Under the pieces are notes generated by a model. That model was not told where the DNA came from. It worked only from the letters and a program-made list of their open reading frames with translations, and searched no databases. Of a DNA stretch of 60,120 nucleotides, positions 946-19,201 are shown one piece after another. Position 1 is the first letter of the stretch. Each line of letters starts with the position of its first letter. A program made the translations under genes and the position numbers. The DNA is from Negativicutes bacterium (GTDB taxonomy: Bacteria; Bacillota; JAAYKD01). The stretch spans positions 1 through 60,120 of the forward strand of contig JAJFTT010000066.1 in assembly GCA_021372785.1 (NCBI GenBank), written 5' to 3'.

Positions 946-1283
946 TGGCATATATAACAAATGAAACCACCGGAGTTTGCATCTCTCACTTTGTCAGCCT
1001 TGAGGTGAAGCAGGAGGTTATCCGAACCACTCAGCAGCTTTTGGATGGCGGCGTATATATTCAGAGAATCGGTGAACCGACAGTATCCTATGCTGTTTTA
1101 GCTTATGTGGACAGAGCTGGTAAAGCCCTGCTGCAAAACGCAGAAGACACCGCTGCGCTGCTTGAGGTTTCGGTGAAGCACGGACTCTACTACGGGCGAG
1201 TCATCGAGCTTTCCTTCTCTGAGCGGTTAGCCGGAGACTTTTTTAAAGCCACCGTGCTCTTGGCAAAGGAGGCAGTCGAATGA
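945..1283 (+). CDS. Phage tail protein, unknown function (112 aa)
   Basis: This small soluble protein follows the tape measure gene directly and overlaps the next gene by four bases (ATGA), so it belongs to the tail operon. I recognise no domain. It has no signal peptide or membrane segment. Position after the tape measure would suit a distal-tail or tail-completion role, but this is inference from gene order only. Confidence 0.7.
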   Translation: MAYITNETTGVCISHFVSLEVKQEVIRTTQQLLDGGVYIQRIGEPTVSYAVLAYVDRAGKALLQNAEDTAALLEVSVKHGLYYGRVIELSFSERLAGDFFKATVLLAKEAVE

Positions 1284-2671: not shown

Positions 2672-2685
2672 GGAGGTATAGTTTT

Positions 2686-4278
2686 ATGGAGAACATCATA
2701 CGGCCTGTGGTGCATAACCGCTTTGACATCGAGGTGGCGGATGCGAGGACAGGCGAGATCAAGCAGTGCGTCACATCCTACAACATCATTCTGGATCAGT
2801 ATTTCACAAGACTTATCAGTCGTTCGTCAAAAATAGGCTACATCCATCTCGGTACAGGCTCGGGAACTCCGACAGTGACAAGAACCTCCATGTTCACCTT
2901 TCTGGGGGCAATGGCAAATACCGTTGTCGAAACGGTCAAGGCATATCCCACAAGCTACACACGCAGAAAAATCGTTCTTTCACCCTCGGACTATGTGGGA
3001 GCCCGTATCACTGAAGTGGGCTTCGGGTACAGCACCTCCAGCGGTACCGCGGTCACACATTCCATGCTGAAGGACAGCGAGGGCAACCAGATTGCCATTC
3101 AGAAAACCGACACCGACGTCCTCACTGTCTATGCCACCTTTTATCTTACCATCGGTGAAGCTGTGCCTGGCGTTTATGTACTGCCCACACCAAACAACAA
3201 TGCCGTCATTTCTGCGGTCCTACAAGACTCCTATTCCACATTGACTCTGATCATGGGTGCGTATGATACTCTGGAACAGGCTAATGACTTGTCTGGAATT
3301 TCTATTTCAAGTAAAACAGGTATCAGCCCGTCAGCAGATCAGCCAAACCGCAAATGGCAGATACCTGTTACCCGATGGAACTATAATGAGGCGAACTCAC
3401 ATATGGTAAGCGCAATCGGTTCTCCCACAATTGCCGCATGGCTGTTGCCAAACCCGGATATTTTTCCGCAGATTACACTATCCAACTTGCCTGTCGGTGT
3501 CGGCGACGGTGTGGCAACGGAGTTTTCTTGTCCGATTCCGAAAATCGTTCCCAATTCTGAGGTCGTTCATATAGACAATGTCCTCCAGACAAAAGGTACA
3601 GATTATGCTATCGACTATGATAACAATAACATTTTCTATCCGGAGTTAATGCTGAGCGCAGACGCTAAATCGCATGAACCCCTGATCACAAACACCAGCG
3701 GAACGGACTATCGGGGATCATCAGACATTCCGCTTATTTATCCTACGACGTCTTATGTAGACGCTGTTAATTCGTCTCGCCGAGTGGGGGTTGTTACCAG
3801 CAACAAATATGATTTCAGAGAGGCAAAAGCATTTAATACACTTATCCTGAATCCCTATGCCGTTCGATACTATGGAGACAGCTATAGCGGTACTGTCAAA
3901 CTAAAAATGCTGTACTCTCTGGACAATCAGACATGGGAAACTTGTTTGGTGACGGAACTCTTCGATAATGAATATTCAGGCTTTCCCCCTGTGAAGAAGA
4001 CATATAGATTCGAAACGGTCACAGCACGCTACATCGCATTTCAAACATTGGAAGCCAATGATACGCCTACCAGCAAATACTTTGCTATCGGCGACTACGC
4101 AACAAAGAATGGCGTCGGATACAACATTTTAGTAGGGCACACAACTCCAGGGCTTACATTTACCTCACCGCCTGCGGCAGGGGCTTCTATTGAGATGGAC
4201 TGTGCGATTGACAGACCTCTTAAGAACGAAAACTGGGTGCTTGATTTTTCATTTGCCGTTCAGTTTGAAAGGGGCTGA
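2686..4278 (+). CDS. Phage tail adhesin-like protein with discoidin-like C-terminal domain (530 aa)
   Basis: Starts 8-9 bases after an AAGGAGG site. The N-terminal 170 residues (phage-tail type, containing YIHLGTGSGTPTVTR) probably attach it to the tail. Roughly residues 340-470 resemble an F5/8 type C (discoidin) sandwich, with the features FNTLIL, YSLDNQTWE and FETVTARYIAF seen in carbohydrate-binding discoidin domains. A host-surface binding role is therefore likely, but the ligand is unknown. The neighbours are tail genes on both sides. The discoidin assignment rests on pattern recognition and is moderate. Confidence 0.65.
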   Translation: MENIIRPVVHNRFDIEVADARTGEIKQCVTSYNIILDQYFTRLISRSSKIGYIHLGTGSGTPTVTRTSMFTFLGAMANTVVETVKAYPTSYTRRKIVLSPSDYVGARITEVGFGYSTSSGTAVTHSMLKDSEGNQIAIQKTDTDVLTVYATFYLTIGEAVPGVYVLPTPNNNAVISAVLQDSYSTLTLIMGAYDTLEQANDLSGISISSKTGISPSADQPNRKWQIPVTRWNYNEANSHMVSAIGSPTIAAWLLPNPDIFPQITLSNLPVGVGDGVATEFSCPIPKIVPNSEVVHIDNVLQTKGTDYAIDYDNNNIFYPELMLSADAKSHEPLITNTSGTDYRGSSDIPLIYPTTSYVDAVNSSRRVGVVTSNKYDFREAKAFNTLILNPYAVRYYGDSYSGTVKLKMLYSLDNQTWETCLVTELFDNEYSGFPPVKKTYRFETVTARYIAFQTLEANDTPTSKYFAIGDYATKNGVGYNILVGHTTPGLTFTSPPAAGASIEMDCAIDRPLKNENWVLDFSFAVQFERG

Positions 4279-4283
4279 CGCCT

Positions 4284-5618
4284 ATGATTCTCACCTTTGA
4301 GTATACAGAGTCGATAGGCAGCGGCCACTCCCCGCAGGTCGTTCACATGATGGAAAACGGCTTCCGTATCATTTACGTGGATGACGGTGGTCTGGTTGAA
4401 GGCATTGTTTCGTTTCCTGAACTCGGGCTGTATGGCGATTTGAGTTGGGAAACCAAAGGCCGGATGTCTCCGGATGAGAGTATTGCTTATCCCAGTTTGA
4501 AAAAAATCGCACACTACGGAGCCTTCGGTTTTTGGAGTGCCGGTACAGAGCATCGCTTTGTGATGTATATGCTGCCGACTGATATTTCCGAGACGCTCAT
4601 CGACGGAACAATCAATCACACAAAGGACAGCCCTGTATCCAGCGCCTCTTTCAGCTTTCAAAACGTTAATGGTTATTTGCTGCGAAAGTACCGGTCGCTG
4701 GTTTCACCCAACGCAATGCTTGAACTATATTTTTCAATGGGAACAGCAGATGAAATATCCCTTGGGAAATGGTATATCGACAGAGTCGGCACGACCATAC
4801 CGGGGAACAACCTCTCTGTCACAGCGAGAAATACCATAGGTAAACTGCTGAAGGAACAAACATTTGACGAGGCAGCTGCTTATACGGAAACAACACTGAG
4901 TGATAATCTGAGAGCAATTCTCTCATATGCCGGTGTGGAGTCCTTTTTTGTGGGCGATGCGGGCAAGAGCTGGAAGCTGAGCTTTGAAGCGCAGGATACG
5001 CTGCTCGGCGGTATCGAGGATATCATAAGGCTCCTGCCGGGTTGGAAGGTGGAAGAAACAGCAGACGGCGTGGTTGGCATCGGGCATTACACAGATGCTC
5101 GGTTTGATCAGCCTACTACTTACCAATTCGAACGGGATAAGAATTGCTGGAGCTATGCAAGCGAATACTCCGACGAAAATACCTACGCAAGAGTATGTAT
5201 CCTCTGCAAGGAACCGGAAAACAGACTTTACATTGATTTAGACCCGCATAAACTGTGGCCCATTCCGGGACACCGGACACTATATATTACAGTACCGGAC
5301 GGGACAACCACCGCCGAGATGGAAAGCTATGCGGCTGAACTTGCCGAGGGAATTGCGTTATCCGGGCGTGTAGAAACCTTTGCAGGCCGCTTTACTCCTC
5401 AGATGGTAATCAGGGACGCGGTGGTGATGGTTGACGGCGATATCTCAGAAGACATCGGTACCGTCACTAATGTAAAACACACAATGGGAAGCAAGGGTTT
5501 CTATACCGAATTTACGGTGGACAGCGGCGGACGAAAAGGTAAACCGATGCTGAAGGACTATGTAGCCCAGCTCTCCGGAAGCAAGACATCAAAATCTATT
5601 ATTACAAACGAATCGTGA
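4284..5618 (+). CDS. Phage tail/baseplate protein, unknown function (444 aa)
   Basis: Follows the adhesin gene with a 5-base gap and is the last structural gene before the lysis module. The predicted product is soluble and beta-rich, with a central segment (about 100-330) that resembles hub-like tail proteins of clostridial prophages. I see no catalytic motif. A terminator hairpin lies three bases after the stop, which separates the structural operon from holin and endolysin. The role is inferred from order. Confidence 0.65.
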   Translation: MILTFEYTESIGSGHSPQVVHMMENGFRIIYVDDGGLVEGIVSFPELGLYGDLSWETKGRMSPDESIAYPSLKKIAHYGAFGFWSAGTEHRFVMYMLPTDISETLIDGTINHTKDSPVSSASFSFQNVNGYLLRKYRSLVSPNAMLELYFSMGTADEISLGKWYIDRVGTTIPGNNLSVTARNTIGKLLKEQTFDEAAAYTETTLSDNLRAILSYAGVESFFVGDAGKSWKLSFEAQDTLLGGIEDIIRLLPGWKVEETADGVVGIGHYTDARFDQPTTYQFERDKNCWSYASEYSDENTYARVCILCKEPENRLYIDLDPHKLWPIPGHRTLYITVPDGTTTAEMESYAAELAEGIALSGRVETFAGRFTPQMVIRDAVVMVDGDISEDIGTVTNVKHTMGSKGFYTEFTVDSGGRKGKPMLKDYVAQLSGSKTSKSIITNES

Positions 5619-5620
5619 TG

Positions 5621-5645
5621 AGCGCCTCTTCCGGGGCGCTTTTTC
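5621..5645 (+). terminator. Rho-independent terminator after the tail genes
   Basis: AGCGCC and GGCGCT arms close a small loop and are followed by TTTTT. It sits directly behind the 444-aa tail gene and before the holin ribosome binding site. Confidence 0.75.
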
Positions 5646-5672
5646 ATTGTTCAAAAGAAAGAGAGGTTCATT

Positions 5673-6083
5673 ATGAAGGAAATTTGGATCTGGATTCAAG
5701 CGGCAGTTGCTGCTGTCGGCGGATGGCTGGGGTACTTCCTCGGAGGCTGGGACGGTTTTTTGTATGCGCTCCTTGCCTTTGTCGTCATCGACTATATCAC
5801 AGGTATTATGTGCGCGGTGCTGGATAAGAAGTTGTCCAGCGAGGTCGGCTTTCGCGGTATTTTCAAGAAGGTACTTATCTTCTCGCTGGTAGCCATAGGA
5901 CACATCGTCGACAAAAGTGTGATCGGAGACGGCTCGGTAATCAGGACGGCGGTAATCTTTTTCTATCTATCGAACGAAGGTGTTTCCATCCTCGAAAATG
6001 TCGCGCACATCGGTCTGCCGGTGCCGCAGAAACTCAAAGACGTTTTAGAGCAGTTTCACAACCGAAACGACAAGGAGGGCTAA
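5673..6083 (+). CDS. Phage holin, holin-4 / toxin secretion-lysis family (136 aa)
   Basis: The protein opens with membrane segments at about residues 5-22 and 27-50, the latter with the motif VVIDYITGIMCAVLDKKLSSE. In the holin-4 family (TcdE/phi105-like) this D-Y-hydrophobic-TG segment followed by SxxGFRGIxKK is diagnostic. Here GFRGIFKKVLIF is present. A third hydrophobic segment lies near 70-90. It forms membrane pores that let the endolysin reach the wall. The start follows AGAGAGG with good spacing. The endolysin starts four bases after the stop. Confidence 0.9.
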   Translation: MKEIWIWIQAAVAAVGGWLGYFLGGWDGFLYALLAFVVIDYITGIMCAVLDKKLSSEVGFRGIFKKVLIFSLVAIGHIVDKSVIGDGSVIRTAVIFFYLSNEGVSILENVAHIGLPVPQKLKDVLEQFHNRNDKEG

Positions 6084-6087
6084 TTTT

Positions 6088-6813
6088 ATGAATTTAAAGC
6101 AGTATTATCTCACTGAAAACAACTGCTACAAGTCAGGAAAGAAACATACGGTTAAAGGTATCCTGGTGCACTCCACCGGAGCAAACAATCCCAATCTAAA
6201 ACGCTATGTAGGTCCTGATGACGGATTACTCGGAGTAAACCAATACAACAATCACTGGAACGCCGCCAAGCCGGGCGGACGCGAGGTCTGCGTTCACGCA
6301 TTTATTGGTAAACTAAAAGATGGTTCAATTGCCACCTACCAGACGCTGCCTTGGGACATGGTAGGATGGCACAGCGGAAGCGGTTCACTCGGCTACGCAA
6401 AAAATGCCAATAACAATGGTTATATCGGCTTTGAAATCTGCGAGGACGGTTTGACCGATACCTCGTATTTTTCTACTGTTTACAAGGAAGCCGTGGAGAT
6501 TTGCGTGTATCTCTGTAAGCAATACGGACTGACGGAGAAGGACATCATCTGCCACTCGGAGGGTCACAAGCTCGGCATTGCCAGCAATCACGGCGATGTG
6601 ATGCACTGGTTCCCGAAGCACGGCAAGAGCATGGATACCTTCCGTGCTGATGTAAAATCCGGTCTTGCCTCTGCCGCCCCCGCCGAGCCGACTGCGCCGA
6701 AGAAATATTACCGTGTGCAGGTCGGCGCGTATTCCGTTAAGGCAAACGCAGAAGCCATGCTTGCAAAGATTAAGGCGGCCGGCTTTACTGATGCTTTTGT
6801 AAAAAGAAACTGA
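6088..6813 (+). CDS. Phage endolysin, N-acetylmuramoyl-L-alanine amidase with SPOR domain, 3' end replaced
   Basis: The amidase_2/PGRP domain covers about residues 15-190. Likely zinc ligands are the His in VHSTGAN (about 28) and a His in the CHSEGHKLGIASNHGD region, with a matching acid. A SPOR-type domain begins at KKYYRVQVGAYSVKANAEA (about 210) and runs to the end. It cleaves the bond between MurNAc and L-Ala of peptidoglycan during lysis. The frame ends VKRN at 6813, but the last codons come from the inserted block. Joining base 6809 to 17154 gives VKRKYSE and a stop at 17166 (244 residues), so only the last four codons were altered. Activity is probably kept. Confidence 0.9.
   Translation: MNLKQYYLTENNCYKSGKKHTVKGILVHSTGANNPNLKRYVGPDDGLLGVNQYNNHWNAAKPGGREVCVHAFIGKLKDGSIATYQTLPWDMVGWHSGSGSLGYAKNANNNGYIGFEICEDGLTDTSYFSTVYKEAVEICVYLCKQYGLTEKDIICHSEGHKLGIASNHGDVMHWFPKHGKSMDTFRADVKSGLASAAPAEPTAPKKYYRVQVGAYSVKANAEAMLAKIKAAGFTDAFVKRN
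6806..6809. other. Left recombination junction, core GAAA
   Basis: Phage endolysin sequence ends here and the sensor gene fragment begins. The same four bases occur at 17150-17153 at the other end of the block. No longer direct repeat flanks the core: five upstream A's on the left contrast with CTTT on the right. Exchange could have occurred anywhere in the four bases. The GA step matches the dinucleotide used by TnpX/TndX-type serine recombinases. Confidence 0.75.
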
Positions 6814-7691
6814 GAATTATGTTCGGAATTATACTGTTCATACATCTGACGAACAAGTGTATTATCGATTTCGCTGAGGGTATATCGTTTTAAAGTGCCG
6901 TCCTGAAGAACGGTATAATTGGTTTTTCCCAAAGAGTTCGCTATCAGTTCCCCTGTATCTTTTTCAATAATGAATGCATAGCCATTGTTTTCCTGTACAA
7001 TATCTTCTAAATAAGAGCCAATACCTGTCAGAAGCATATGCGTTCCAAGGACCCCCTGCAGATTGCCGGATCCGTCATATATTGGCCAGGCAGCCGATAC
7101 GGTCATGTCTTCCATCACAAAATGCTTATATACAGGCGAGAATACGGGTCCGCCCGCTTCCTTTGCAGCCTTGTACCATACGCGCGTACGAGGATCAAAT
7201 TTTCCTGCCCGGACAGTGATTTCGCCGGCAGTATAATCGCTGTTCACCGAATAATACCAGGAATTCCCGTCCGTATAGGAATTATTTTTCATGATCTCAA
7301 TTACGTTATTTTCATTTCTTCTTGCCCCATAATATTCACCGTTTTCAGTACCGTAACTGAAGCTGTAGATCTCGTTGCCATGGGAGTATAAAACGCCTGT
7401 AAAAAACCTGTCCCGGGCATCTTCGTCCGAAAAATCGAAAATTTTATTTTCTATAAATTTGTGGTTGAACTCATTGATGTGCTCAGGAACCTGCATAAAC
7501 GCATTTATCTTGTAATAAATCTCCTGATTCATATTCCTGGCAGTATTTTCTGTTATTTTTGAAGCGGATGAAGACCAGTTTGAAAAAACAAGATGCCCTA
7601 TAATACTCATGGAAATCAACATTGCAAAAACAAAAGTTATAATGAGAATACCTCTGATCGAGATGCTTTTGTTTCCTGTGTTTCCTTTCAT
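6806..7691 (-). pseudogene. N-terminal half of a Cache-domain sensor (PAS-GGDEF-HD) split by recombination
   Basis: Codons 1-295 encode a membrane segment at about residues 14-34 (IRGILIITFVFAMLISMSII) and most of a large extracellular double-Cache sensor domain, with features such as GKFDPRTRVWYKAA and WPIYDGSGNLQGVLGTHM that are typical of dCache_1. The genuine sequence stops at SEHNSQF. Beyond that the open frame runs antisense through the endolysin and adds 32 meaningless residues. The matching C-terminal half lies at 15357-17153. A GAAAGGATGGCGG site precedes the ATG. The fragment lacks any output domain and is probably non-functional where it now sits. Confidence 0.85.
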
Positions 7692-8032
7692 GTATCCGCC
7701 ATCCTTTCAAGTCATCGGTCGTTGTTTGGCTGGATTTTCGGGAGATTAAGCTGTTTTCCTCATCGAGGAGTTTTATAACAGGGGTTCGATTTAATAATTA
7801 TTCGTGAATACTATAGGTTATGGAAGAAAAAAATCCTATACACAGCTGTTACAGCAATTACGTGTATAAGACAAATCTAACAGTGCGCGGTGCTAATATT
7901 TTTTCAGTTTCGGCTTAAATTCTAAAAAATTCTTAAATTTATTTTAATTATACAATATTATTTATAAAGCTACAAGTTATAACGTATGAGTTTTAAAAAA
8001 AATTACCAAATAAGCTTTATTGATCTGAGCAT

Positions 8033-8070
8033 AAAAAACCCGCCAAACATCATCATTGAAATTTGGCGGG
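8033..8070 (-). terminator. Terminator downstream of the MATE gene
   Basis: CCCGCCAAA (8039-8047) pairs with TTTGGCGGG (8062-8070). On the minus strand the stem is followed by a run of six T's. The rest of the 530-base gap (7692-8222) is AT-rich and must contain the promoter and leader of the sensor gene. I found no recognisable riboswitch there. Confidence 0.75.
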
Positions 8071-8222
8071 AATGTTTTATCCGACGGATTCTGGGGCATG
8101 CAATCCTCGGGCTGCTCCCATATGGATCAGCCTCAGGGTTATTCATCAGGGATTTCTTTTGATTGCAGATAAATATTCTTTTTTATATACATACAGCAGA
8201 TTGAATTCAGTTTTTAAATGCT

Positions 8223-9656
8223 TCAGACCTTTTGAGGCAAGTCGGTTTCTTTTGGGGGCGCTCCGTCCAATTCAAGTTCTTTCATCGCCTTCTTGAACTG
8301 TGCCGCGAATAGGATTGCTGTGAAGACAACAGCGATGATGTCCGCGATTGGCTCTGACGCATATATTGCGACGGCCTGATTTGCCTGGAAAATATGCGGC
8401 AAAATAAAGATGAGCGGGATGAGCAGCACGAATTTCCGGACGATGGCAACGGATATGGCCGCTTTGGCGCTTCCGATCGCGAGGAATGTTATCTGGCAGG
8501 CTATCTGTATGCCTAAGATAAGCATGATTGCGAAATAGATACGCATTGCTGTATAGGTAAATGCCGACAGTGCCGCATCAGACGTGAAGATGCCGACAAA
8601 TATCTGCGGGAACAGCATGATGAGCGCCCACAACACAGCCGAATAGATCAGGCTTGCCTTAAGCAGAAGCCTGAAGGTCTGTCTGACCCGGACAGTGTTT
8701 TTAGCGCCGTAGTTATAGCTTGCTATAGGCTGCGCTCCCTGGCCGAGGCCTTGCAGCGGCAGCATGGCGAACTGCATAATGCTGGTTAGTATTGTCATGG
8801 CGCCAACCGCAATGTCGCCTCCGTATCTGAGCAGCGACGAATTGTAGCAGACCGCGATGACGCTTTCGCTGGCAGTCATAATAAACGGCGCAAGGCCAAG
8901 AGCGACACAGGGCAGGATGATTTTTGCGTCCAGCCTGATATTGGCGCGCCTGAGCTTCAGCAGAGTTTTCTTTCCGAAGAGGAAGTATACGACCCATACG
9001 CAGGACACTCCCTGAGAAATAATGGTCGCCAGTGCCGCGCCGCGTACGCCCATTTTGAGCCCATATATGAATATGGGATCCAGCACGATATTGCACAATG
9101 CCCCGATCAGCACTGTGCGCATACTGATCTTTGTAAAGCCCTGGGCGGTGATGAAAGCGTTCATGCCCAGTGTGAGCTGCACGAATATCGTGCCGAGGGC
9201 ATAAATGTTCATGTAATCTGTCGAGTAATTAATGGTGTTTTCGCTTGCGCCGAATACCAGCAGAAAATCTCTGTTCCATATCAAAAGAACCACAGTCAGT
9301 ATGACTGAAATAATGATCTGAAACAGAAAGCAGCTGCCCAGCGTCCTTTCGGCGAAAGCATTGTCTCCCTTGCCCATGGATATGGAAGCACGGGGTGCGC
9401 CTCCAGATGCAATCAGCGATGCAAATGCGGTTACTATCATGATGACCGGAAGGCACACGCCCACTCCGGTCAGCGCCAGCGCGCCGTTCTCCGGCATATG
9501 GCCGATGTAAATACGGTCGACAATGTTATAAAGCATGTTGATGAGCTGCGCAAGTACCGTTGGTATGGCCATCCGGCGAAGCAGTTTTCCGATAGGTTCT
9601 GTCCCAAGAAAATCGTTGTTTTGTGATAGGGATAGGGATTGAGATTGCGATTTCAT
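8223..9656 (-). CDS. MATE family multidrug efflux pump (477 aa)
   Basis: Length and about twelve membrane segments fit the MATE family. The N-terminal FLGTEPIGKLLRRMAIPTVL and following YNIVDRIYIGH are classic for the MepA/NorM-like branch. The second half repeats the pattern with LGQGAQPIASYNYGAKN. The pump uses a Na+ or H+ gradient to export cationic drugs, dyes or metabolites. GGAAG lies nine bases before the ATG. It starts six bases after the MarR gene and must be cotranscribed with it. A terminator lies 150 bases downstream. The substrate is unknown. Confidence 0.92.
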   Translation of the reverse strand: MKSQSQSLSLSQNNDFLGTEPIGKLLRRMAIPTVLAQLINMLYNIVDRIYIGHMPENGALALTGVGVCLPVIMIVTAFASLIASGGAPRASISMGKGDNAFAERTLGSCFLFQIIISVILTVVLLIWNRDFLLVFGASENTINYSTDYMNIYALGTIFVQLTLGMNAFITAQGFTKISMRTVLIGALCNIVLDPIFIYGLKMGVRGAALATIISQGVSCVWVVYFLFGKKTLLKLRRANIRLDAKIILPCVALGLAPFIMTASESVIAVCYNSSLLRYGGDIAVGAMTILTSIMQFAMLPLQGLGQGAQPIASYNYGAKNTVRVRQTFRLLLKASLIYSAVLWALIMLFPQIFVGIFTSDAALSAFTYTAMRIYFAIMLILGIQIACQITFLAIGSAKAAISVAIVRKFVLLIPLIFILPHIFQANQAVAIYASEPIADIIAVVFTAILFAAQFKKAMKELELDGAPPKETDLPQKV

Positions 9657-9662
9657 GTAAGT

Positions 9663-10103
9663 TTACTTCCTTTCCAATCCTTCCAGTGCGTTTTGCCATA
9701 TGCGCACATTCATGTCTGCGTACTGTTTCTGTTCCACCAGGGTGAAGCCGCTGAAAAGCTGCGCCGAAAACGCGTCCAGCACTGCGGATATATCAGGTAT
9801 CATCTTTTGCGCATCGTCTGTCAGCATAAGATGGATGCGCCGTCTGTCGCCCGTATCCTGCCTGCGCAGCAGCAGCTCCTTTTGTATCAGCGATTCTACT
9901 GCCTTTGATACGTTTGCCTTCGGCAACCTTCTCAGATCGACGATATCGCTTGCTGTGTCCTTACCCGGATTGTTGTTAAGAAACATCAGTATATTCGACT
10001 CGATCTGCGTAAGGCCGTACTTTTCGCATACGTCTTTACCGCTTAGCTCGAACAGCCGCATTACCGCTTGGAAGCGCTGCAATATTTCTCCGCCTTTAAG
10101 CAT
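9663..10103 (-). CDS. MarR family repressor of the MATE pump (146 aa)
   Basis: Standard MarR length. The winged helix spans about residues 30-100: GLTQIESNILMFLNNNPGKDTASDI gives the first helices, RRLPKANVSKAVESLIQKELL the recognition helix, and RRQDTGDRRRIHLMLT the wing with the family-typical DxRRxxxxLT signature. The gene leads a two-gene operon with the MATE pump, and a perfect palindrome overlaps its promoter. Autoregulation with derepression by a pump substrate is the likely scheme, which is inference from many MarR/MATE pairs. Confidence 0.92.
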   Translation of the reverse strand: MLKGGEILQRFQAVMRLFELSGKDVCEKYGLTQIESNILMFLNNNPGKDTASDIVDLRRLPKANVSKAVESLIQKELLLRRQDTGDRRRIHLMLTDDAQKMIPDISAVLDAFSAQLFSGFTLVEQKQYADMNVRIWQNALEGLERK

Positions 10104-10125
10104 ATGGTCACCACCACTCTCATAA

Positions 10126-10184
10126 AGTTTCTATGGAAACTGTTTTATTATAAACTATTATACATTCAATCCGCTGTTTGTCAA
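10126..10184 (-). promoter_or_regulatory. Promoter and operator of the MarR-MATE operon
   Basis: On the minus strand TTGACA (10179-10184) and TATAAT (10157-10162) are spaced by 16 bases, a near-consensus sigma-A promoter. The 16-base palindrome AGTTTCTATGGAAACT (10126-10141) lies just past the expected start point, a usual place for a MarR operator. Confidence 0.8.
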
Positions 10185-10476
10185 TGGTTATCATGAAATC
10201 AGATGAGTTCAAATATGAAGCATGAGCATTTTTTGCGTTGCAAAGCAAACAATTTTCCGGTATCAAGGGATATCAAATATAACAGATTAAGGTGCAATGG
10301 CAGCGAAGATTAAAATCGAATAAAAAAGGACATTTTGCAGCTTTTTGGGTAGAATTTACCCAAAAGAGATATGCAAATATGTCCAAGAAAAAATATTAAG
10401 TATGGGCAGCTGCTTTGCCAATATAACCGCGATGTCTATGATGTCATGCCCTTTGCGATCTAGTAAACAAAGATTG
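10185..10476. other. Non-coding gap with one hairpin
   Basis: AT-rich DNA between the MarR promoter and the end of the DUF6544-like gene. The only structure I see is a hairpin, TTTTGGGTA (10343-10351) with TACCCAAAA (10357-10365), which may end transcription of the DUF6544-like gene although no T-run follows. A 78-aa frame crossing it on the + strand has no support. Confidence 0.5.
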
Positions 10477-11334
10477 TTAGTTATTTTCCGTAATAGTGCC
10501 TTTCCCGTTAAAATAAATCAGGTCCCCATCGTCATAATGCCAAATTGCCTGAAACGAGGTCGGTTTTTTGATACCGTTTAATTCTATATAATCATCACAA
10601 ACAACTGACCATTCCATCGTTTCGCTTGATCCATCGGTTGCTACAGCCGACCTGTCATCGGTTGTGAAAGACAGCATTTCCCCATTTTCGTTAAATGTAA
10701 AAATTCCGCTGACAGATATACCATAACAGGATATTGTTGCTTTTGCGTTCAGATCATCGACTGCCTCCCATTTAATATAATCCTGTAAAGCTGAATTAGG
10801 GACAAAGAGGATTTCCGAGAGGAATGTGACCAGGCTCGATTTATCCATAACTTCTCCTGTTTGGTCAAATAAAGTGAAAAGTTTTGCCAAAACGCCTTTC
10901 ATTGAACCGGAACCATCTGAATATGTGTCCAGTCCTTCAAAGGGGATACCATACATCGAGCTGTCAATATAGGCGATTCTATTCGGCTCTTTCACGAAAT
11001 TATATTGCGTGTAATCGATTTTTATCGCAGATTTATTCTTGCCGAACAAAAAATCGACATCCTGATAATATATTTTTATATAGGACATTTTCGGTGTGCC
11101 AATATAACCGCAATATCTGAAGTATGTCTGAACAGGCGCGGGCAGGCCGGCAATGTCTTCCTCCTGGAATATGCCTTCCTGAGGATCAGCTTCAGTCATA
11201 AGTTGCTTTGCCGTCCTGTCAAAGTCCGTTTTAGACTTTGAATATGGAATATTAAAAAATATCATCAGGATACCTGTTACGCAGAGTACAACCCCGATTA
11301 TAGTGAGCATTATTTTTTTGCTCCTCCTTCTCAT
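10477..11334 (-). CDS. DUF6544/DUF6920-like membrane-anchored protein (285 aa)
   Basis: One N-terminal membrane segment (about residues 9-29) precedes an extracytoplasmic domain. The motif LPAPVQTYFRYCGYIG at about 63-78 is the recurring signature of the DUF6544 family, whose role is unknown. The rest looks like a beta-rich lipid- or lipoprotein-binding fold. It starts six bases after AAGGAGG. It lies between the hydrolase and the MarR gene on the same strand, with gaps large enough for its own promoter. Family assignment is from memory of the motif. Confidence 0.6.
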   Translation of the reverse strand: MRRRSKKIMLTIIGVVLCVTGILMIFFNIPYSKSKTDFDRTAKQLMTEADPQEGIFQEEDIAGLPAPVQTYFRYCGYIGTPKMSYIKIYYQDVDFLFGKNKSAIKIDYTQYNFVKEPNRIAYIDSSMYGIPFEGLDTYSDGSGSMKGVLAKLFTLFDQTGEVMDKSSLVTFLSEILFVPNSALQDYIKWEAVDDLNAKATISCYGISVSGIFTFNENGEMLSFTTDDRSAVATDGSSETMEWSVVCDDYIELNGIKKPTSFQAIWHYDDGDLIYFNGKGTITENN

Positions 11335-11393
11335 AACGTTCCTCCTTCATTGGACCTACGAGTATAACGAAAATTCATACCTTTTTCTGCATG

Positions 11394-12563
11394 TCATGCA
11401 GTATCAGTATCGGCAAGAGCAGTACTTTTGTTTAATACGTCCTCGAGCATGATCTGCGTAAATTTTTCAGGTTCTTCAAACATGGGGCTATGGGCAGACT
11501 GCTCGAATGTATAAAAACCTTTTACCGGAGCCTGCAAGTGTTTCAGGTAAACTTTTGATAAATCATAGTTAACCGTATAATCGTATTTGCCGCTGATAAA
11601 ATAAGCAGGAATCTTTAACTGGGATACTTCGGCAGTCAAATCCGCAGAAAAAAGCTGATCAATTAATTTGGTATCATTTCTCAAAAAAGCTTTTGCACGC
11701 CATACCGTTATTTTTTCTTTCAGTGTATATGCCCTGCATTGAAAGACGGGAATAAATATACCGGTAATGACGGATTTCATATTGTGCATGGTACCAATGC
11801 CAAGCTCATGCATGGTTCTGTCACGTAATAAAGAAACAAAAAATGAACGAACCGCGATATCAGATTCCAAAACCGGATAGTTTTTTAATTTCTTAATCAT
11901 TTCATTGTTTCCGGCCGCTGTATACTGCTCCAGAATGTATGTGTATGCCAGCTTTTCCGATTCAGCCATTTGTGAAATCTGTGCCACGCCGATATAGGCG
12001 ATATATAGCTGAGGCGCCTGGGCCGCGGCTTGAATACCGAGGAATGAACCCCAGGAATGCGCCATTAAATAAATCTTATCCTGCCCAAAACGTTCGCGAA
12101 GATAATTTGTTGCTTCTATCGTATCGGATACAAGCTGTTCCGCGGTTAAGTCCTGTGCCGAAATGTCTGCGTTATACGAAAGCCCTGCGCCGCGCTGCTC
12201 CCAGTAACAAACGGTGAAGTGGTCTTCAAGCCCGGTTGGATACTTCTCGGCAAGAAAATACTCCGGCATACCCGGTCCCCCATGCAAAAAAAGCAGCACC
12301 GGGTTTTTTGTATTTTTACCTTTTATAAACATACCCTGCTCGACACCACCGATGTTTACTATAACTTTTTCAGATATGCTTCCCTCAAGCATACTATTGT
12401 TTTTATCCAAAAAAGGTTCAGGTTTTCCCGGACTGATTACTAATAATATGCCTGTGAGAATAAATACACATCCAAGTAAAAAAGCAAGCGTGATTGGCAT
12501 AATACGCCCCTCCCTAGTTACAAGCGATTTTTTAGAAAGCTTCTCATTCTTAATCATTTTCAT
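11394..12563 (-). CDS. Alpha/beta hydrolase, proline iminopeptidase-like, membrane anchored (389 aa)
   Basis: I chose the ATG at 12563 because GGGGA precedes it by six bases. Upstream in-frame codons would overlap the TetR gene. A membrane segment (about residues 20-42) is followed by a hydrolase domain. LFLHGGPGMPEYF holds the oxyanion loop, MAHSWGSFLG the nucleophile Ser, SGKYDYTVN the Asp, and QSAHSPMFEEPEKF the His. HGGPG is typical of the S33 prolyl aminopeptidase branch, but related esterases and lactonases share it, so the substrate is open. The gene follows the TetR gene by 13 bases and is almost certainly controlled by it. Confidence 0.85.
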   Translation of the reverse strand: MKMIKNEKLSKKSLVTREGRIMPITLAFLLGCVFILTGILLVISPGKPEPFLDKNNSMLEGSISEKVIVNIGGVEQGMFIKGKNTKNPVLLFLHGGPGMPEYFLAEKYPTGLEDHFTVCYWEQRGAGLSYNADISAQDLTAEQLVSDTIEATNYLRERFGQDKIYLMAHSWGSFLGIQAAAQAPQLYIAYIGVAQISQMAESEKLAYTYILEQYTAAGNNEMIKKLKNYPVLESDIAVRSFFVSLLRDRTMHELGIGTMHNMKSVITGIFIPVFQCRAYTLKEKITVWRAKAFLRNDTKLIDQLFSADLTAEVSQLKIPAYFISGKYDYTVNYDLSKVYLKHLQAPVKGFYTFEQSAHSPMFEEPEKFTQIMLEDVLNKSTALADTDTA

Positions 12564-12576
12564 TTTTTTCCCCGAT

Positions 12577-13170
12577 TTACAATGTCTGTTTGTTCCAAAT
12601 AATATCTTCAATCTTTTTTTCCCAATCTTTGTCATAATAAATATTTTTCATTGTAGCGATTGAAGCAAGGCCATGAACGGAAGCCCATAATGCTATAATC
12701 GTATCTTCCATTTTTTCTTTTGGCATTCCGGTTTCTCCGAAGATACGTAAAACATTTTCTTTCAGTAATTCAAAAGGCGGAAAGTTGTTCTTCGCATTTT
12801 CATCCAATGACAGATTAACTTTTATGCAAGGCTGTGAAAACAGGAACTGAAAATAATTTGGATTTTTAACAAAAAACAGCACATAACTCTTCCCCATTTG
12901 GATCAGCACTCTTTGGTCGTTTTGATTTAGACAGGATTCAATTGCGGTGTGAAGAACTTCCATAAACTGATTTGTTACATAATCCTGCATAGCCTCCAGC
13001 AAGTCTTCCTTGCTTTGAAAATGACTGTAAGGCGCCGATTGACTTACACCGCACATGACACATACTTTTCGCAATGAAAGCTGCTCTATACCCTTTTGAT
13101 TAATTAATTCAATCCCAGCCTCAATGAGACAATTTCTTAAATTCCCATGATGATAGGGTTTATCCGGCAT
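12577..13170 (-). CDS. TetR family repressor (197 aa)
   Basis: The N-terminal HTH covers about residues 8-55, with LIEAGIELINQKGIEQLSLRKVC followed by GVSQSAPYSHFQSKEDLLEA, the usual TetR recognition helix and connector. The C-terminal ligand domain matches the WHG-type group (FELLKENVLRIF, IIALWASVHGLASI). It heads an operon with the hydrolase. A long inverted repeat covers its own promoter. It probably represses both genes until a small molecule binds. The ligand is unknown. Confidence 0.92.
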   Translation of the reverse strand: MPDKPYHHGNLRNCLIEAGIELINQKGIEQLSLRKVCVMCGVSQSAPYSHFQSKEDLLEAMQDYVTNQFMEVLHTAIESCLNQNDQRVLIQMGKSYVLFFVKNPNYFQFLFSQPCIKVNLSLDENAKNNFPPFELLKENVLRIFGETGMPKEKMEDTIIALWASVHGLASIATMKNIYYDKDWEKKIEDIIWNKQTL

Positions 13171-13201
13171 TTTATCACCTCTTCATCTTTACGCTGTTTA
13201 G

Positions 13202-13236
13202 ATTATAATATGATATCTTTACAGTGTCAAGATATC
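13202..13236 (-). promoter_or_regulatory. Consensus promoter with TetR operator
   Basis: TTGACA (13225-13230) and TATAAT (13202-13207) are exact consensus hexamers spaced by 17 bases on the minus strand. GATATCTT (13212-13219) and AAGATATC (13229-13236) form an inverted repeat that flanks and overlaps the -35 hexamer and spacer, where bound TetR would block polymerase. Confidence 0.85.
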
Positions 13237-13334
13237 GGGATGAGAAAGTGTCTGACTGAAAGTTATCCGTATGAGATCGGAACTGGCTCCGTTGATTCAT
13301 AGATAAAAGTAAAATTTGTATAAAAAGTTTCGAT

Positions 13335-13452
13335 CGAACCTTTTCAAAGGTTCGCGAGGGAGTTGGGGGCGTCGCCCCCAAGGTTTTTTAATGCTGATAA
13401 AGCGTATTTTGGAAGGGTTTGGGGAACCTTTTTCAAGAAAAAAGGTTCCCCA
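13335..13452. repeat. Hairpin-rich intergenic repeat of the clostridial type
   Basis: Three near-perfect hairpins stand in a row. They are CGAACC/GGTTCG arms at 13335-13354, TTGGGGGC/GCCCCCAA at 13363-13381 followed by a T-run, and a 14-base-arm stem GGGGAACCTTTTTC with its complement at 13421-13451. The composition resembles interspersed hairpin repeats I associate with gut Clostridia, although I cannot check copy number. It fills the gap between the chemotaxis receptor and the TetR gene and could also act as a bidirectional terminator. Confidence 0.65.
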
Positions 13453-13549
13453 ACATATCGGATTTGTGCACTTTTTTACAGGATGCCTTTTTCGACACTC
13501 TGATGCTATGATTCATAGAAAGCCTTTGGGGATTCAGTTTTCCAGTAAG

Positions 13550-14338
13550 TTAATAGTCTGTATTTTTAAGCTTAAAACTCCCTACCTGTTTTTTCATAAG
13601 CTCGGCCTGATTTGCCAATTCCTCATTTATCGCTGAATTTGACTGCATTTCCTGGGATATCAGCATGATTCCCTGATCGATTTTTTTGGACGAAACAGCG
13701 ATATCGTTCATAAGGGCCGCAACAGCGGACACTTCACTGACAATCTTATTGAGAGCATCCGTGGCATTTTTTGCGATCTTTGTGCCGCCGTCAACCTTAC
13801 TGATGGTGTCGTGGATCATTTCAGCCGTTTCCTTGGCTGCGTCTGCGGAACGCGTAGCAAGGTTCCGAACTTCCTCCGCAACTACGGCGAAACCCTTTCC
13901 GTGCTGCCCCGCCCTTGCGGCTTCAACTGCCGCGTTGAGCGCCAGTATGTTTGTCTGAAAGGCGATGTCTTCAATCACTTTGATGACCTTGGATATATTT
14001 GTGGAAGTATCATTTATCTCTTCCATAGCGATAACCATTTCTTTGATCTGGTTATCACCCTGTACAGCTTTCTCTTTGGCGGCGCTTGCCAGCTTATTTG
14101 CCTGGTCCGCGTTGCAGGTATTATTGCTTATGAGTGAAGATATCCCGACTATGGAGGCTGTCGGCGCCCCCTGTTCGGATGTGCCGTGCAAAAGCGCCAT
14201 ATTGGAGTCGTAGGCCCGGCGGGAGTCTGCCAGAACATTATTTGAAGCAGTGTTGATATTAGTCAGCAGCAGGTTGATTTTTTCAACCATTTCCTTAAGC
14301 TTTATGTTAAGAAAATCATCCTCAGACCGGGCTTTCAA
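13550..14338 (-). CDS. Methyl-accepting chemotaxis protein, C-terminal signalling part (frameshifted gene)
   Basis: This frame holds the MCP signalling domain. The hairpin tip is IAFQTNILALNAAVEAARAG followed by GKGFAVVAEEVRNLA, which binds CheA and CheW, and long methylation and coiled-coil helices surround it. The frame opens with a TTG inside the upstream gene and has no ribosome binding site. Its first residues KARSEDDFLN continue naturally from the upstream frame ending GGDLNIY. One missing base in a TATATAT tract near 14338-14345 therefore breaks a gene of about 553 codons. A sequencing slip or slippage-based phase variation are the alternatives to a dead gene. Confidence 0.85.
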   Translation of the reverse strand: MKARSEDDFLNIKLKEMVEKINLLLTNINTASNNVLADSRRAYDSNMALLHGTSEQGAPTASIVGISSLISNNTCNADQANKLASAAKEKAVQGDNQIKEMVIAMEEINDTSTNISKVIKVIEDIAFQTNILALNAAVEAARAGQHGKGFAVVAEEVRNLATRSADAAKETAEMIHDTISKVDGGTKIAKNATDALNKIVSEVSAVAALMNDIAVSSKKIDQGIMLISQEMQSNSAINEELANQAELMKKQVGSFKLKNTDY

Positions 14339-15204
14339 TATATATTCAAATCTCCGCCGGAAATCTTCTCGACAGCCGCCGCCTGCTCGCGAATATTGTT
14401 TATCATCTTGACGAACTCTGACGTCAGGATGCCTATTTCATCGGTCTTGTTCAGGTATCTGTCTGGAAACGTTATATCAACTATACCCTGGGATAACCTG
14501 GAAGAAGCGTTCTCCAGTATTTTTATGGGGTCAACTACTGTTTTCTTAACCACAATGTAAATCAAAACAAATGAAACAGCACACGACAGGATCATTATTC
14601 CTAATAAAGTGGGAAGATAATCATTAATACTCTTATTGATGGTATCAGCTCCGATATCCAGCCCGACAACGCCGACCACTTTGTTTTCGCTGTTAAAAAC
14701 AGGTGCAAAGCCTGAAATAAGATCACCGTATGCTCCGTTGGAATAAACAGAAGAAAAGGTGCCGTTTCCTGTTGAAATGGCTTCGCCGGGCTCGGCTCCG
14801 TATTCATCCTTGGGCTGCGTATCGCCAAGCATACTGGGTGTTTCGCCTTCCGAATATCCGTCCGCTATATATTTGTAATTGCTGCCCGAATCAACCATTA
14901 TGTATAAATAAGTCAGATCCAATTTTTCTTTCAGCTTGCTTATATAATCCAGCATTACCTGATAATAATCATCTTTCACTCCGGTTTTATCATATTCCGA
15001 TATCTTGTTTCCATCAATATTTTCGCTTACTGTCATAGCAATATCAAGAGCTCGCCTGCCCATATAATCTTCTAAATTGCTTTTGTATGTGGCAAAGCTG
15101 AAGTAACCTATTAATAGAGAACAACCCATGGATATAAGAAGTACATAAATTGAAATTTTGATTTTTATCGATATCTTTTTTATGATATAACACTCCTTCA
15201 GCAA
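14335..15204 (-). CDS. Methyl-accepting chemotaxis protein, N-terminal sensor part (frameshifted gene)
   Basis: Residues 13-35 form the first membrane segment and about 190-215 the second (LLGIMILSCAVSFVLIYIVV). Between them is a Cache-type ligand domain with the feature VFNSENKVVGVVGLDIGAD. A HAMP domain follows (VDPIKILENASSRLSQGIVDI). The frame stops at 14335, just after HAMP, and overlaps the signalling part by four bases in another frame. Without a frame correction the product would bind ligand but not signal. It lies directly downstream of the sensor fragment, in the same orientation. Confidence 0.85.
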   Translation of the reverse strand: MLKECYIIKKISIKIKISIYVLLISMGCSLLIGYFSFATYKSNLEDYMGRRALDIAMTVSENIDGNKISEYDKTGVKDDYYQVMLDYISKLKEKLDLTYLYIMVDSGSNYKYIADGYSEGETPSMLGDTQPKDEYGAEPGEAISTGNGTFSSVYSNGAYGDLISGFAPVFNSENKVVGVVGLDIGADTINKSINDYLPTLLGIMILSCAVSFVLIYIVVKKTVVDPIKILENASSRLSQGIVDITFPDRYLNKTDEIGILTSEFVKMINNIREQAAAVEKISGGDLNIY

Positions 15205-15356
15205 ATTAATGTAATCAAATGTTCGCTTATTTCAGCAGAAGTTTTTTCTGCTTGAATAAATATATCGACCCCGACCAGGGTTTATTAATACTGTCTTAAA
15301 AATGCACCGAAAGAGAATCAGCTCTGAAACAGTCAAGCTTAAAGCACCTCTGTGGA

Positions 15357-17153
15357 CTACTGTTTATTCATCATTTGCACAAACAAGTCGACGATTTGAG
15401 GGTCAAACTGTTTCCCGGCGCCGTCAATAATCACCTGTATGGCCTTTTCCCTGCCTGCAGAGTTTGGGTTTTCCTCGCTGCTTAACACTCTTTCATAGGT
15501 TTCCCCTATGGAAATTATCCTTGACAGCAAGGGGATTTCTCTGCCTTTAAGCCCCTTTGGATATCCTTTTCCATCCCATCTTTCATGGTGGCTGTATACG
15601 CCTTCCGACAAATCAAGAGTAGTGTCGAACAGGTTCAATATGCGGTAACCGATAACCGGATGCTGCTGCATTTTTTCAAGCTCTTCCTCTGACAAATCGG
15701 CTTTGGACAAAAGGTGTTCTTCCAATACAATTTTACCGATATCATGCAAAAACCCTGCTTGTTTTAATCTTTTTATTTCCGTATCCGGAAGGTCCATGGC
15801 ACTGCCGATACTGCCGCATATTTCCTCAACAGTAATCGAATGCTGTTTTTCTTTAGGGCTGCGGTTGTGCAGGGTTTCGATTATTGTATTGATAATGTCC
15901 ATATTAAAGGACTTCCGGTTCAGCGCCTTGTCTTTATACATCGCGTTTTCTGCGCTGGACAACACTTCTTCAATGGGTTGTGCCGAATTTGTTTTGGTAT
16001 TGCTGCCCAACGCAATGCTGCACTTTATTGCGGCAATACGCGAGTCGGAGAAAATATCTTTGATATTGGAAAGGACTTTCATTGCGTCCTCGTTTGTGGC
16101 TTTTGGCAGGATCATAACAAATTCGTCTCCGCCTACGCGGGCGACAGAGCCGTCTTTTCTGCAGGCTTCCATAAGGATTTCCGACGACTTCTTGATTAGG
16201 GCATCTCCCGCTGAATGTCCAAAGATATCATTGGTCATCTTTAAACCGTTGATATCTGCAAAAATCACCGATAAGGGCAGGTTGTCCGGATTATCTAATT
16301 TTTTAAGGTTCTCTTCAAAGCATCTTCTGTTGTGAAGACCGGTCAAGGTGTCGTGGCAGCTCAGGTATTTGATTTCCGCTTCTCTTTTCCTGCGCCCTGT
16401 AATATCCGTGAACGTAATAACTGCTCCAACGATTTTTTCGTTTTTTATCTGGGGATAAGCATGGTATTCAACATAGAAGAATGTGCCGTCCTCTTTCCAA
16501 AAAACCTCATCGTCAGAATGTGTACCTTCATTTTGTCTGATCGATTTCATAATTTTGCATTCTTCGGCGGAGAAGGGGGTACCGTCAATCTTGCTGTGAT
16601 GTATCTTCCGGTGCATATTCTCTCCGAGAAGATCTTCCTGGCCGGAATACCCGAGCAATTTGATGCAGCTTGTGTTGCAGAATGTACAGTTTCCTTCCAA
16701 ATCGATACCGTAAATTGCCTCGGCGGCTGAGTCCAGAAGAAGCCGAAGCTGATCTTTGCTGGTTTTCATGTCTTCCGTTCTTGTTTTCACCGTATCTTCC
16801 AGATTGTTTATTAAATCATAAAGGTTTTCGGCCATTTCATTGAAAGCTCCCGACAGTCTGCCGATCTCGTCATTTCTGAAAATTACCGCCCTGTCGGCAA
16901 GGTTGCCGGATGATATGTTATCAGCCACTTTCAACAAATTGCCCATAGGTTTAAGCAATCTTCTTATTATGATGTAAAAAAACAGTATCGACAGAAGAAT
17001 GGCGATTATCATAAGGATTATTGTCATCTGAATGCTTTGGTACACTTCTGTCATTAACAAACTTTCAGGCACCGCGGAAATAATGATCCAATTCAAACCC
17101 TCCCTATCAAACTCTTTTGCGTTTACATACAGGCTTTCGTTCTTTCTTTGAAA
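15357..17153 (-). pseudogene. C-terminal half of the split sensor: HAMP-PAS-GGDEF-HD
   Basis: Reading in from the junction, QRKNESLYVNAKEF completes the Cache domain begun at 6806-7691. A membrane segment follows (about residues 40-60 of the fragment), then HAMP, a PAS domain (SAAEAIYGIDLEGNC onward), a GGDEF domain and an HD-type phosphohydrolase domain (HDIGK, HHERWDGKGYP as in HD-GYP-like proteins). The GGDEF signature reads VGGDEF, so the cyclase loop looks intact. A frame starting at the ATG at 17096 could still make a cytoplasmic-side protein, but it has no good ribosome binding site. Reconstructed full length is 892 residues. The whole protein would be a c-di-GMP-type sensor, and whether it makes or degrades the messenger is open. 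Confidence 0.85.
17150..17153. other. Right recombination junction, core GAAA
   Basis: To the left is sensor gene sequence, to the right the displaced endolysin end: AAG TAC AGC GAG TAA completes the codons for K-Y-S-E and stop. The junction is 147 bases upstream of the first gene of the recombinase operon, as expected for the attP of a large serine recombinase. Confidence 0.75.
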
Positions 17154-17180
17154 GTACAGCGAGTAAACATATACTTAGTG

Positions 17181-17222: not shown

Positions 17223-17299
17223 GCTTATTTTTTGTACGATGGTCTTCTTTTTTTCCAGTGGGTAGTGAGGACAAGAGTTCTCGGACTGGAGAAAAGCTC

Positions 17300-17695
17300 A
17301 TGACAACCGATCAGAAAAAAATAATAACCGAAATGCGAAGACTGGGTTGCACCTACGCGAGTATTGCAGAGACGCTCTCAATTTCGGAAAGTACGATAAA
17401 AACTTACTGCCGTCGTACTCGGCTTACTGACAATACTGAAAAAACAGTTCTTGTTTGCAAACAGTGTGGCAAACCAATCAAGGTGAAGAACAAACACAGA
17501 GCGCGTCAGTTCTGCTCAGACCAGTGTCGTGCGGCATGGTGGTATGCCAATCGTGGCAGCAAGCCCAGAACGGAATATCAACTGATATGCTCGAACTGCA
17601 GTCAGCCCTTCGTGAGCATCGGAAACAAGGCTCGGAAGTACTGCTCTCATCAGTGCTATATTGCCGCCCGGTTCGGAGGTAACAGCCATGAATGA
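17300..17695 (+). CDS. Small HTH plus double zinc-ribbon protein of the recombinase operon (131 aa)
   Basis: I chose the ATG at 17300, eight bases after GGAG. A start at 17258 would add 14 residues. Residues 1-50 form a sigma-70-region-4-like or resolvase-like HTH (YASIAETLSISESTIKTYCRRT). Two treble-clef or zinc-ribbon units follow, each with CxxC and CxxxC pairs (VCKQCGK...FCSDQCRAAW and ICSNCSQ...YCSHQC). It probably binds DNA and may be a directionality or regulatory factor for the recombinases, which is inference from position. The stop overlaps the next start region. Confidence 0.7.
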   Translation: MTTDQKKIITEMRRLGCTYASIAETLSISESTIKTYCRRTRLTDNTEKTVLVCKQCGKPIKVKNKHRARQFCSDQCRAAWWYANRGSKPRTEYQLICSNCSQPFVSIGNKARKYCSHQCYIAARFGGNSHE

Positions 17696-17909
17696 CCACA
17701 CTCTTGGCTACAAATCCGCTATGGCGCAAGCACGTCGGATGCTGTCAGAGGGCATCATCAACGAAGCTGAGTACACCATAATTGATACAATGATGGCCGA
17801 AAAATACGGCTTATCCTCGTGTAGTTTATTCCGGGAAAATGGCTTGCTATATAGTAGTATCAGAGGTAATATGTCACACTACAAGGGGGTGACAATATGC
17901 AAAAAATAA
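17688..17909 (+). CDS. SHOCT domain protein (73 aa)
   Basis: The ATG at 17688 lies eight bases after GGAGG. The core RRMLSEGIINEAEYTIIDTM followed by MAEKYG is a SHOCT-type short helical motif, usually a C-terminal oligomerisation module but common as a small free protein next to serine recombinases in elements of Bacillota. It overlaps both neighbours, so it is translated in concert with them. The function is unknown. Confidence 0.75.
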   Translation: MNDHTLGYKSAMAQARRMLSEGIINEAEYTIIDTMMAEKYGLSSCSLFRENGLLYSSIRGNMSHYKGVTICKK

Positions 17910-19201
17910 TCAAAAAGGTGGCGCATCCGCCGAAGTTAGAGCGAAAAAAGCGTGTCGCCGCCTACGCCCGCGTGTCCAGCGGCAAGGACGCGATGCTTCA
18001 TTCGCTCTCATCGCAAGTCGCGTATTACAGCACGCTGATACAGAAGCACGGCGACTGGGAATATGCCGGTGTGTACGCTGACGAGGCGATGACCGGCACC
18101 AAGGAAAGCCGCGACGAGTTTCAAAGGCTGCTTGCCGACTGCCGCGCCGGATGTATTGATCTGATACTTACCAAGTCCATCTCCCGCTTCGCTCGAAACA
18201 CGGTCACTCTGCTGGAAACCGTGCGAGAGCTGAAACTACTGGAGGTGGATGTTTTTTTAGAGGAGCAGAACATTCACACACAGAGCAGCGAGGGTGAGCT
18301 GATGATGACCATTCTCGCGTCCTACGCACAGGAGGAAAGCCTGTCGGCAAGCGAAAATCAGAAATGGCGCATCAAGCGCAATTTCGAAGCCGGAAAGCCG
18401 TGGGATTGCACGATTCTCGGATACCGGGCAAAGGACGGTGTTTTCGAGATTGTGCCGGAGGAAGCGGAAACAGTGCGGCTGGTGTTCAAGTGGTATCTTG
18501 ATGGGTTTGGCAGACAGGCAATCGCCAACCGGCTCAATGAGTTGGGGATTCCTACACGCTTTGAAAAGAGCTGGCATCAGGACACAATCCGAAAAATGCT
18601 CCGAAATGAAAAATACACTGGTGACCTGCTTCTGCAGAAGACGTTCCGCACCGACCACCTGACAAAGCAGACTCGCATAAATCACGGCGAGCTTCCTATG
18701 TACCATGTTCAGGACGCACACGAGCCAATCATCGACAGGGCGACTTTCGATGCGGTTCAACAAGAACTTGTCAGACGAGCAGAGAGCGTCCATGTAAAAC
18801 CCGGTTCGTCTACGGCTTTCACCGGTAAGATACGTTGCGGCCTCTGCGGGAAAAAGTATCGGCGCAAGACGACGCATACCGGCATCGCTTGGGTCTGCGC
18901 CACATACAACACAAAAGGGAAAAAATACTGCTCTTCCAAGCAGATACCGGAAGAAACGCTCAAAGCCGTGACTGCCAAGGTACTCGGTTGTGATTTATTT
19001 GATGAGGATGCATTTGCGGAGCGCATTGCTTTTGTCTCCGCGCTACCGAACAATACTCTGGAGTTTACTTTCACAGACGGACATTCGGAAAACGCCACAT
19101 GGCAAGACCGCTCACGCTCTGAGAGCTGGACTGCGGAAAGGCGTCAGGCAGCGGCAGAGAAAACGAGGAAAAGGAGTGAAAAGAAATGCCAAGAGCAGTA
19201 A
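17897..19201 (+). CDS. Large serine recombinase 1 (434 aa)
   Basis: The resolvase catalytic domain spans about residues 18-160. YARVSSGKD carries the nucleophilic Ser, and TKSISRFARNT and the YAQEESLSASEN segment complete the active site. The recombinase domain (about 175-280, GYRAKDG...NEKYTGD) and a zinc-ribbon domain with CGLCGKKY and a distant CxxxxxxxxxxxC pair follow. The C-terminal coiled coil is short, with a basic tail, so it resembles the accessory partner in paired-recombinase modules. It overlaps the SHOCT gene by 13 bases and recombinase 2 by 16. It likely acts on the phage attachment site. Confidence 0.92.
   Translation: MQKIIKKVAHPPKLERKKRVAAYARVSSGKDAMLHSLSSQVAYYSTLIQKHGDWEYAGVYADEAMTGTKESRDEFQRLLADCRAGCIDLILTKSISRFARNTVTLLETVRELKLLEVDVFLEEQNIHTQSSEGELMMTILASYAQEESLSASENQKWRIKRNFEAGKPWDCTILGYRAKDGVFEIVPEEAETVRLVFKWYLDGFGRQAIANRLNELGIPTRFEKSWHQDTIRKMLRNEKYTGDLLLQKTFRTDHLTKQTRINHGELPMYHVQDAHEPIIDRATFDAVQQELVRRAESVHVKPGSSTAFTGKIRCGLCGKKYRRKTTHTGIAWVCATYNTKGKKYCSSKQIPEETLKAVTAKVLGCDLFDEDAFAERIAFVSALPNNTLEFTFTDGHSENATWQDRSRSESWTAERRQAAAEKTRKRSEKKCQEQ

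Follow-up and report, generated by a model that had tools for sequence, protein, structure and literature searches.

Structure of the prophage and of the inserted block

A block of 10,350 bp with foreign composition interrupts the endolysin gene of a prophage close to its 3' end, and its two ends are complementary parts of a single sensor gene. When these ends are joined, the sensor becomes one open frame, and when the outer flanks are joined, the end of the endolysin and its terminator are restored. Among the readings of this structure we put first the microhomology-type capture of a foreign DNA circle into a cargo site of the prophage, which we give about an even chance of being correct. The event seems to have been a single capture, and not the work of a new mobile system.

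The window, i.e., the whole stretch of 60,120 nucleotides that was analysed, is the start of a contig of a draft genome of 2.1 Mb in 74 contigs. Its features are listed in Table 1. Phage genes are found on both sides of the block, the second phage stretch (the HTH gene and two large serine recombinases) running from 17,154 to about 20,785. Downstream of recombinase 2, the host genes start at 20,845 with an MFS transporter. The first base of the contig is already inside the prophage, and most of the prophage is absent from the draft genome; a terminase large subunit has no match in the assembly, and the rest of the prophage was thus not found there. Two GenBank records labelled Ca. Heliusvirales (PV036425 and PV036431) have a like order of the module that was compared, namely holin, endolysin, HTH gene and recombinase pair, with recombinase identities of 62-67%.

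Table 1. Coordinates of the prophage, block and host features in the window.
Feature	Position	Strand	Evidence
Prophage right arm: tail genes, holin, endolysin	1-6803	+	Pfam and viral relatives
Holin (prophage right arm)	5673-6083	+	Pfam Phage_holin_4_1
Endolysin, amidase_2 and SPOR	6088 to left junction	+	Pfam Amidase_2, SPOR
AAA joint, left copy (endolysin/sensor)	6801-6803		Phage relatives GTAAAG or ATCAAG; window GTAAAAAGAAACTG
Inserted block, 10,350 bp, circularly permuted, every recognised gene on the minus strand	6804-17153		GC shift, tetranucleotides, absence elsewhere
Sensor codons 1-296: membrane segment and most of Cache domain	6804-7691	-	dCache_1; homologues 39-68%
MATE efflux transporter	8223-9656	-	Pfam MatE, 1.1e-41
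MarR-type regulator	9663-10103	-	Pfam MarR_2
DUF6544 protein	10477-11334	-	Pfam, 2e-76; closest DNA relatives 74-76%, one Bacillota family
Alpha/beta hydrolase	11394-12635	-	Pfam Abhydrolase_1; adjoins TetR gene in genome G063 as well
TetR-type regulator	12577-13170	-	Pfam TetR_N
Methyl-accepting chemotaxis protein, two frames	13550-15204	-	14335-15204 HAMP; 13550-14338 MCPsignal
Sensor codons 297-894 and stop, HAMP-PAS-GGDEF-HD	15357-17153	-	Pfam; homologues contiguous across joint
AAA joint, right copy (sensor/endolysin end)	17151-17153		Match to L266 resumes at 17151, 91% identity
Endolysin last codons, displaced	17154-17165	+	Near-identical to L135; stop and hairpin terminator next
HTH/sigma-region-4-like gene, first of recombinase operon	17297-17695	+	Sigma70_r4_2, phrog_2308
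Large serine recombinase 1	17897-19201	+	Resolvase, Recombinase, Zn ribbon
Large serine recombinase 2	19186-20769	+	Pfam and relatives; border of the prophage and probable native att immediately past it
Host chromosome: MFS, tRNA-Leu, FeoB, ObgE, PBP2, others	20845-60120		Gene content

The genes of the block have a GC content of 40-43%, against 49-51% for those of the phage and of the host, and the shift occurs at both junctions. The tetranucleotide profile of the block is about as distant from the host as that of the phage is. Domain searches of the block proteins recognised no recombinase, replication or mobilisation gene, which agrees with the initial annotation on a circle lacking replication and recombinase genes, and no transposase domain; Rfam and tandem-repeat searches of the block returned nothing. 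No second copy of the block is present elsewhere in the genome, and the block is also missing from three relatives of the same class. Given that the TetR and hydrolase genes are neighbours in G063 too, part of the block likely has an ordinary chromosomal gene order. The frame change in the chemotaxis receptor falls near position 14335, at an AT dinucleotide repeat; it may be a genuine frameshift, variation of the slippage type or an error of sequencing.

Exact position of the junctions

The end of the N-part of the sensor lies at the left junction and the end of the C-part at the right junction. Homologues of the sensor in bacterial genomes, with identities up to 64%, run unbroken across the position of the joint. 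When compared with one and the same set of homologues, the N- and C-parts give much the same identities, which fits their being parts of a single gene. On the phage side, the closest viral relative has the empty site (AAGTACAGCGAGTAA), with an endolysin ending in KYSE. This end stands in the phage relatives straight after FV or FI (GTAAAGTACAGCGAATAA in L143 and L145; ATCAAGTACAGCGAGTAA in L135, the closest). The closest relatives, L135 and L266, match the window at 91% from 17151 onward, with the uninterrupted site AAGTACAGCGAGTAAACATATACTTAG.

With the end of the endolysin in the relatives taken as the empty site (GTAAAGTACAGCG), the sequence shared at the joint is AAA, the block measures 10,350 bp and the sensor counts 894 codons. 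If GT-AAA-G is the share of the phage, base conservation closes the block as TTTG-AAAAA-GAAACTG, and the sequence of the closed-circle joint would be TTTGAAAAAGAAACTG. In this closure the sensor reads QFLF/QRKNE at the joint (marked by the slash), versus HFVY/KGENE in its nearest relative, without a gap, and the same is true of the alignment with nearly all intact homologues. The joint had initially been placed at GAAA, giving a circle of 10,344 bp, a sensor of 892 codons and an endolysin ending in VKRKYSE. That the sensor is split by a permuted block at the end of the endolysin stands, as do the KYSE end and the terminator, but the coordinates become 6804-17153. The GAAA joint makes the endolysin two residues longer and the sensor two residues shorter than in the relatives: the sensor of 892 codons has a 2-residue gap exactly at the joint against nearly all homologues, and the two additional residues of the endolysin are absent from its closest relatives. 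Since the corrections to the endolysin and to the sensor agree, the exchange took place at AAA and neither removed nor added any bases.

A shared stretch of at least 3 bp is found for 5.3% of random pairs of phage and block positions, and a 3-bp joint is by itself unremarkable, being ordinary for random joining. It is not plausible, however, that an insertion would by chance carry complementary parts of one gene at its two ends, and that these would join in frame and match the register of the homologues. The comparison establishes what the empty phage site and the uninterrupted sensor look like, and that the exchange at AAA was clean, without loss or gain. The claim that a whole circle was inserted, or a permuted piece of unit length equivalent to it, is supported by the restored sensor and by the empty site in the relatives.

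Phage relatives and the likely native attachment site

The relative loci come from viral contigs fetched by their endolysin and recombinase 2. The endolysin is separated from the HTH gene and its operon by 60-189 bp in 56 of the 62 loci having both genes (some contigs being present twice), which are prophages with the endolysin directly before the recombinase operon, as the initial annotation had suggested looking for. Many IMG/VR contigs end 3-9 bases from recombinase 2. Such ends are expected if the border of the prophage is there, and the trimming of IMG/VR contigs at gene edges probably contributes to them. In the phage record NatCom_21982, a direct repeat of 13 bp (GGAATAATTAAAA) occurs twice, near the left end and 73 bp past recombinase 2; the sequence at this left end is also where NatCom_11393 begins. 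The direct repeat beyond recombinase 2 is the likely native att. The block is inserted elsewhere than in this region. For this reason, we abandoned the end of the endolysin as the att site of the neighbouring recombinases, as first proposed: the gap between endolysin and operon is intact in nearly all relatives, the probable att lies past recombinase 2, and in the window, too, recombinase 2 is followed by host DNA.

In other phages the gap between the endolysin and the HTH gene holds extra genes, over 7.3 kb in L017, 4.5 kb in L193 and 1.7 kb in L055. The insert of L017 (739-8068) encodes a DUF6551 protein, HTH regulators and, at 5538-7388, a large serine recombinase of its own. That of L193 (6711-11162) has genes for a DUF2800 protein, for a family A DNA polymerase and for a small protein that looks conserved; in such phages, these genes usually belong to the early region. 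Past recombinase 2, L006 (11000-20507) has ParA/ParB-like and other genes like those of integrative conjugative elements, as if this prophage sat in such an element. The pattern of the left junction is absent from the viral contigs that were searched.

Origin of the block

No donor was found among three relatives of the class, 398 genomes of the phylum, 54 genomes of one family and a plasmid collection, nor among viral contigs through the DUF6544 gene. The best single-gene DNA matches to the block are 74-76% identical. Since no donor genome was found, we infer the circle itself from the insert. A lossless insertion that has one half of a gene at each end points to one crossover by which a circle joined the prophage. 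This circle may have been a piece excised from a chromosome, or else a small plasmid with a replication determinant that was not recognised, and would come from another Bacillota of lower GC. Given that both parts of the sensor are still open frames, the sequence suggests that the event was recent.

Proposed mechanisms of insertion

Capture of a circle would have begun in a prophage with the order holin, endolysin, HTH gene and serine recombinase pair, and with its border beyond the second recombinase. One circle of 10,350 bp would then have entered by one rare exchange at the 3 shared bp, through microhomology or illegitimate recombination, and would have cut off the last codons of the endolysin. 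Phage recombination functions may have assisted this exchange, and the normal att reaction of the prophage would not be the route of entry. In such phages the gap after the endolysin tolerates extra genes, which would allow the insert to persist there. Lossless joining at both breaks is expected of enzymes more than of end joining. The assembly, which is 97.5% complete, gave no match for a Ku gene; Ku-type end joining was set aside on this ground, and the clean exchange together with the lack of a Ku match counts against plain end joining. A transposon with target duplication was also discarded, given that the block has no transposase and that its ends are two parts of one gene.

Serine recombinases are characterised by conservative exchange at a short identical core, and an operon encoding two of them adjoins the insertion site. 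It may be that such an enzyme, from the prophage pair or from another element, exchanged the sensor site with the end of the endolysin, both serving as secondary sites, and that the crossover of 2 bp fell within AAA. The sensor site is T-rich and then A-rich (TTTCTTTGAAAAAGAAA), which resembles the relaxed target sites, T-rich then A-rich, of one multi-targeting large serine recombinase (PMC10083194). Nonetheless, we consider this unlikely, given that the likely native att is located beyond recombinase 2 and that the endolysin site, compared over 60 bp to either side, has in common at most 6 consecutive bases with the sensor site and at most 8 with the att region, none of these stretches being at the crossover. 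Moreover, no inverted repeats stand out at either break, and no further insert was seen at this AAA. A pattern of CTTT-3 bases-AAAG, noticed by eye at both sites, is out of line with the crossover and was not retained. A unit of a tandem amplification or of a plasmid multimer, brought by a phage or by transformation and inserted as a linear piece, would look identical to the insertion of a circle, since any such piece of a head-to-tail repeat has the permuted structure. Both of its ends would have to be cut at the same base, however, and a single crossover of a circle is simpler, which makes this origin very unlikely.

That a chimaeric assembly or library joint placed a foreign circular contig within the prophage contig would be in line with the fragmentation of the draft, the start of the contig within the prophage, the unmatched terminase and the composition of the block, foreign to the host. 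This is quite improbable when it is considered that both junctions are exact and fall at the same 3 bp, an overlap far below those used by assemblers, that there are no N bases in the window, and that chimaeras do not normally restore both parents precisely. The order of endolysin, sensor N-part, sensor C-part and recombinases would also be obtained from two prophages or a tandem array, with the block as host DNA lying between prophages in two copies of the sensor and later moved or recombined, if the att lay between the endolysin and the operon. In the relatives the att is elsewhere, recombinase 2 is followed by host DNA and not by a second prophage, and two sensor copies would have to be split at the same base, so that we regard this arrangement as highly improbable. 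It is also very doubtful that prophages, by the recombinase pair or by another phage function, recurrently capture foreign circles devoid of mobility genes after the endolysin; if they did, ordinary chromosomal or plasmid segments would gain phage-borne mobility. The general route for moving chromosomal segments that had been proposed is not upheld by a single case in which no second permuted insert was seen.

Relation to known systems

Capture of a foreign circle finds its nearest described case, by analogy, in region B of wine yeasts, a segment from Zygosaccharomyces bailii that entered by way of an extrachromosomal circle, this circle being supported by several permuted copies at different sites and by a replication origin that was tested and works (PMC3053389). 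Both are foreign multi-gene segments, circularly permuted and with genes of their own split at the insertion points, and in both the junctions are clean (mostly so in region B) and share little sequence, 2-3 bp at some breakpoints of region B and 3 bp here (PMC3053389). They differ in that region B belongs to a eukaryote, with end joining invoked (PMC3053389), while the present host is a bacterium without a Ku match, and in that the several permuted copies and the origin of region B are set against a single copy with no recognised replication gene. Indeed, of the features that define region B, the permutation that restores a split gene and the scarce sequence shared at the breakpoints are found here, but several permuted insertions are not.

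Campbell-type integration by large serine recombinases is likewise one conservative crossover, by which a circle joins a linear molecule at a short identical core. In the present case, the circle lacks a recombinase and the insertion is at a site other than the att of the prophage. Indeed, the block proteins lack Resolvase and Recombinase domains, which separates the block from the integrative elements of serine recombinases, and it has no transposase or element ends of its own, as a transposon would. The block resembles prophage cargo (morons) in its position between the endolysin and the border of the prophage, in its foreign composition and in the relatives that carry extra genes there, but here ordinary bacterial genes make up the cargo, as an entire circle that was opened inside one of them.

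The insert offers a base-precise example of foreign, integrase-free circular DNA entering a bacterial genome within a prophage. If the insertion is confirmed, it would mean that circle capture like that of yeasts occurs in bacteria, and it makes available two exact sites at which the action of an enzyme can be weighed against chance joining.

In the host portion, two direct repeats (79 and 58 nt; 84-96% alike) alternate between 59775 and 60078 with a spacing of 147-159 bp, reaching near the end of the window.
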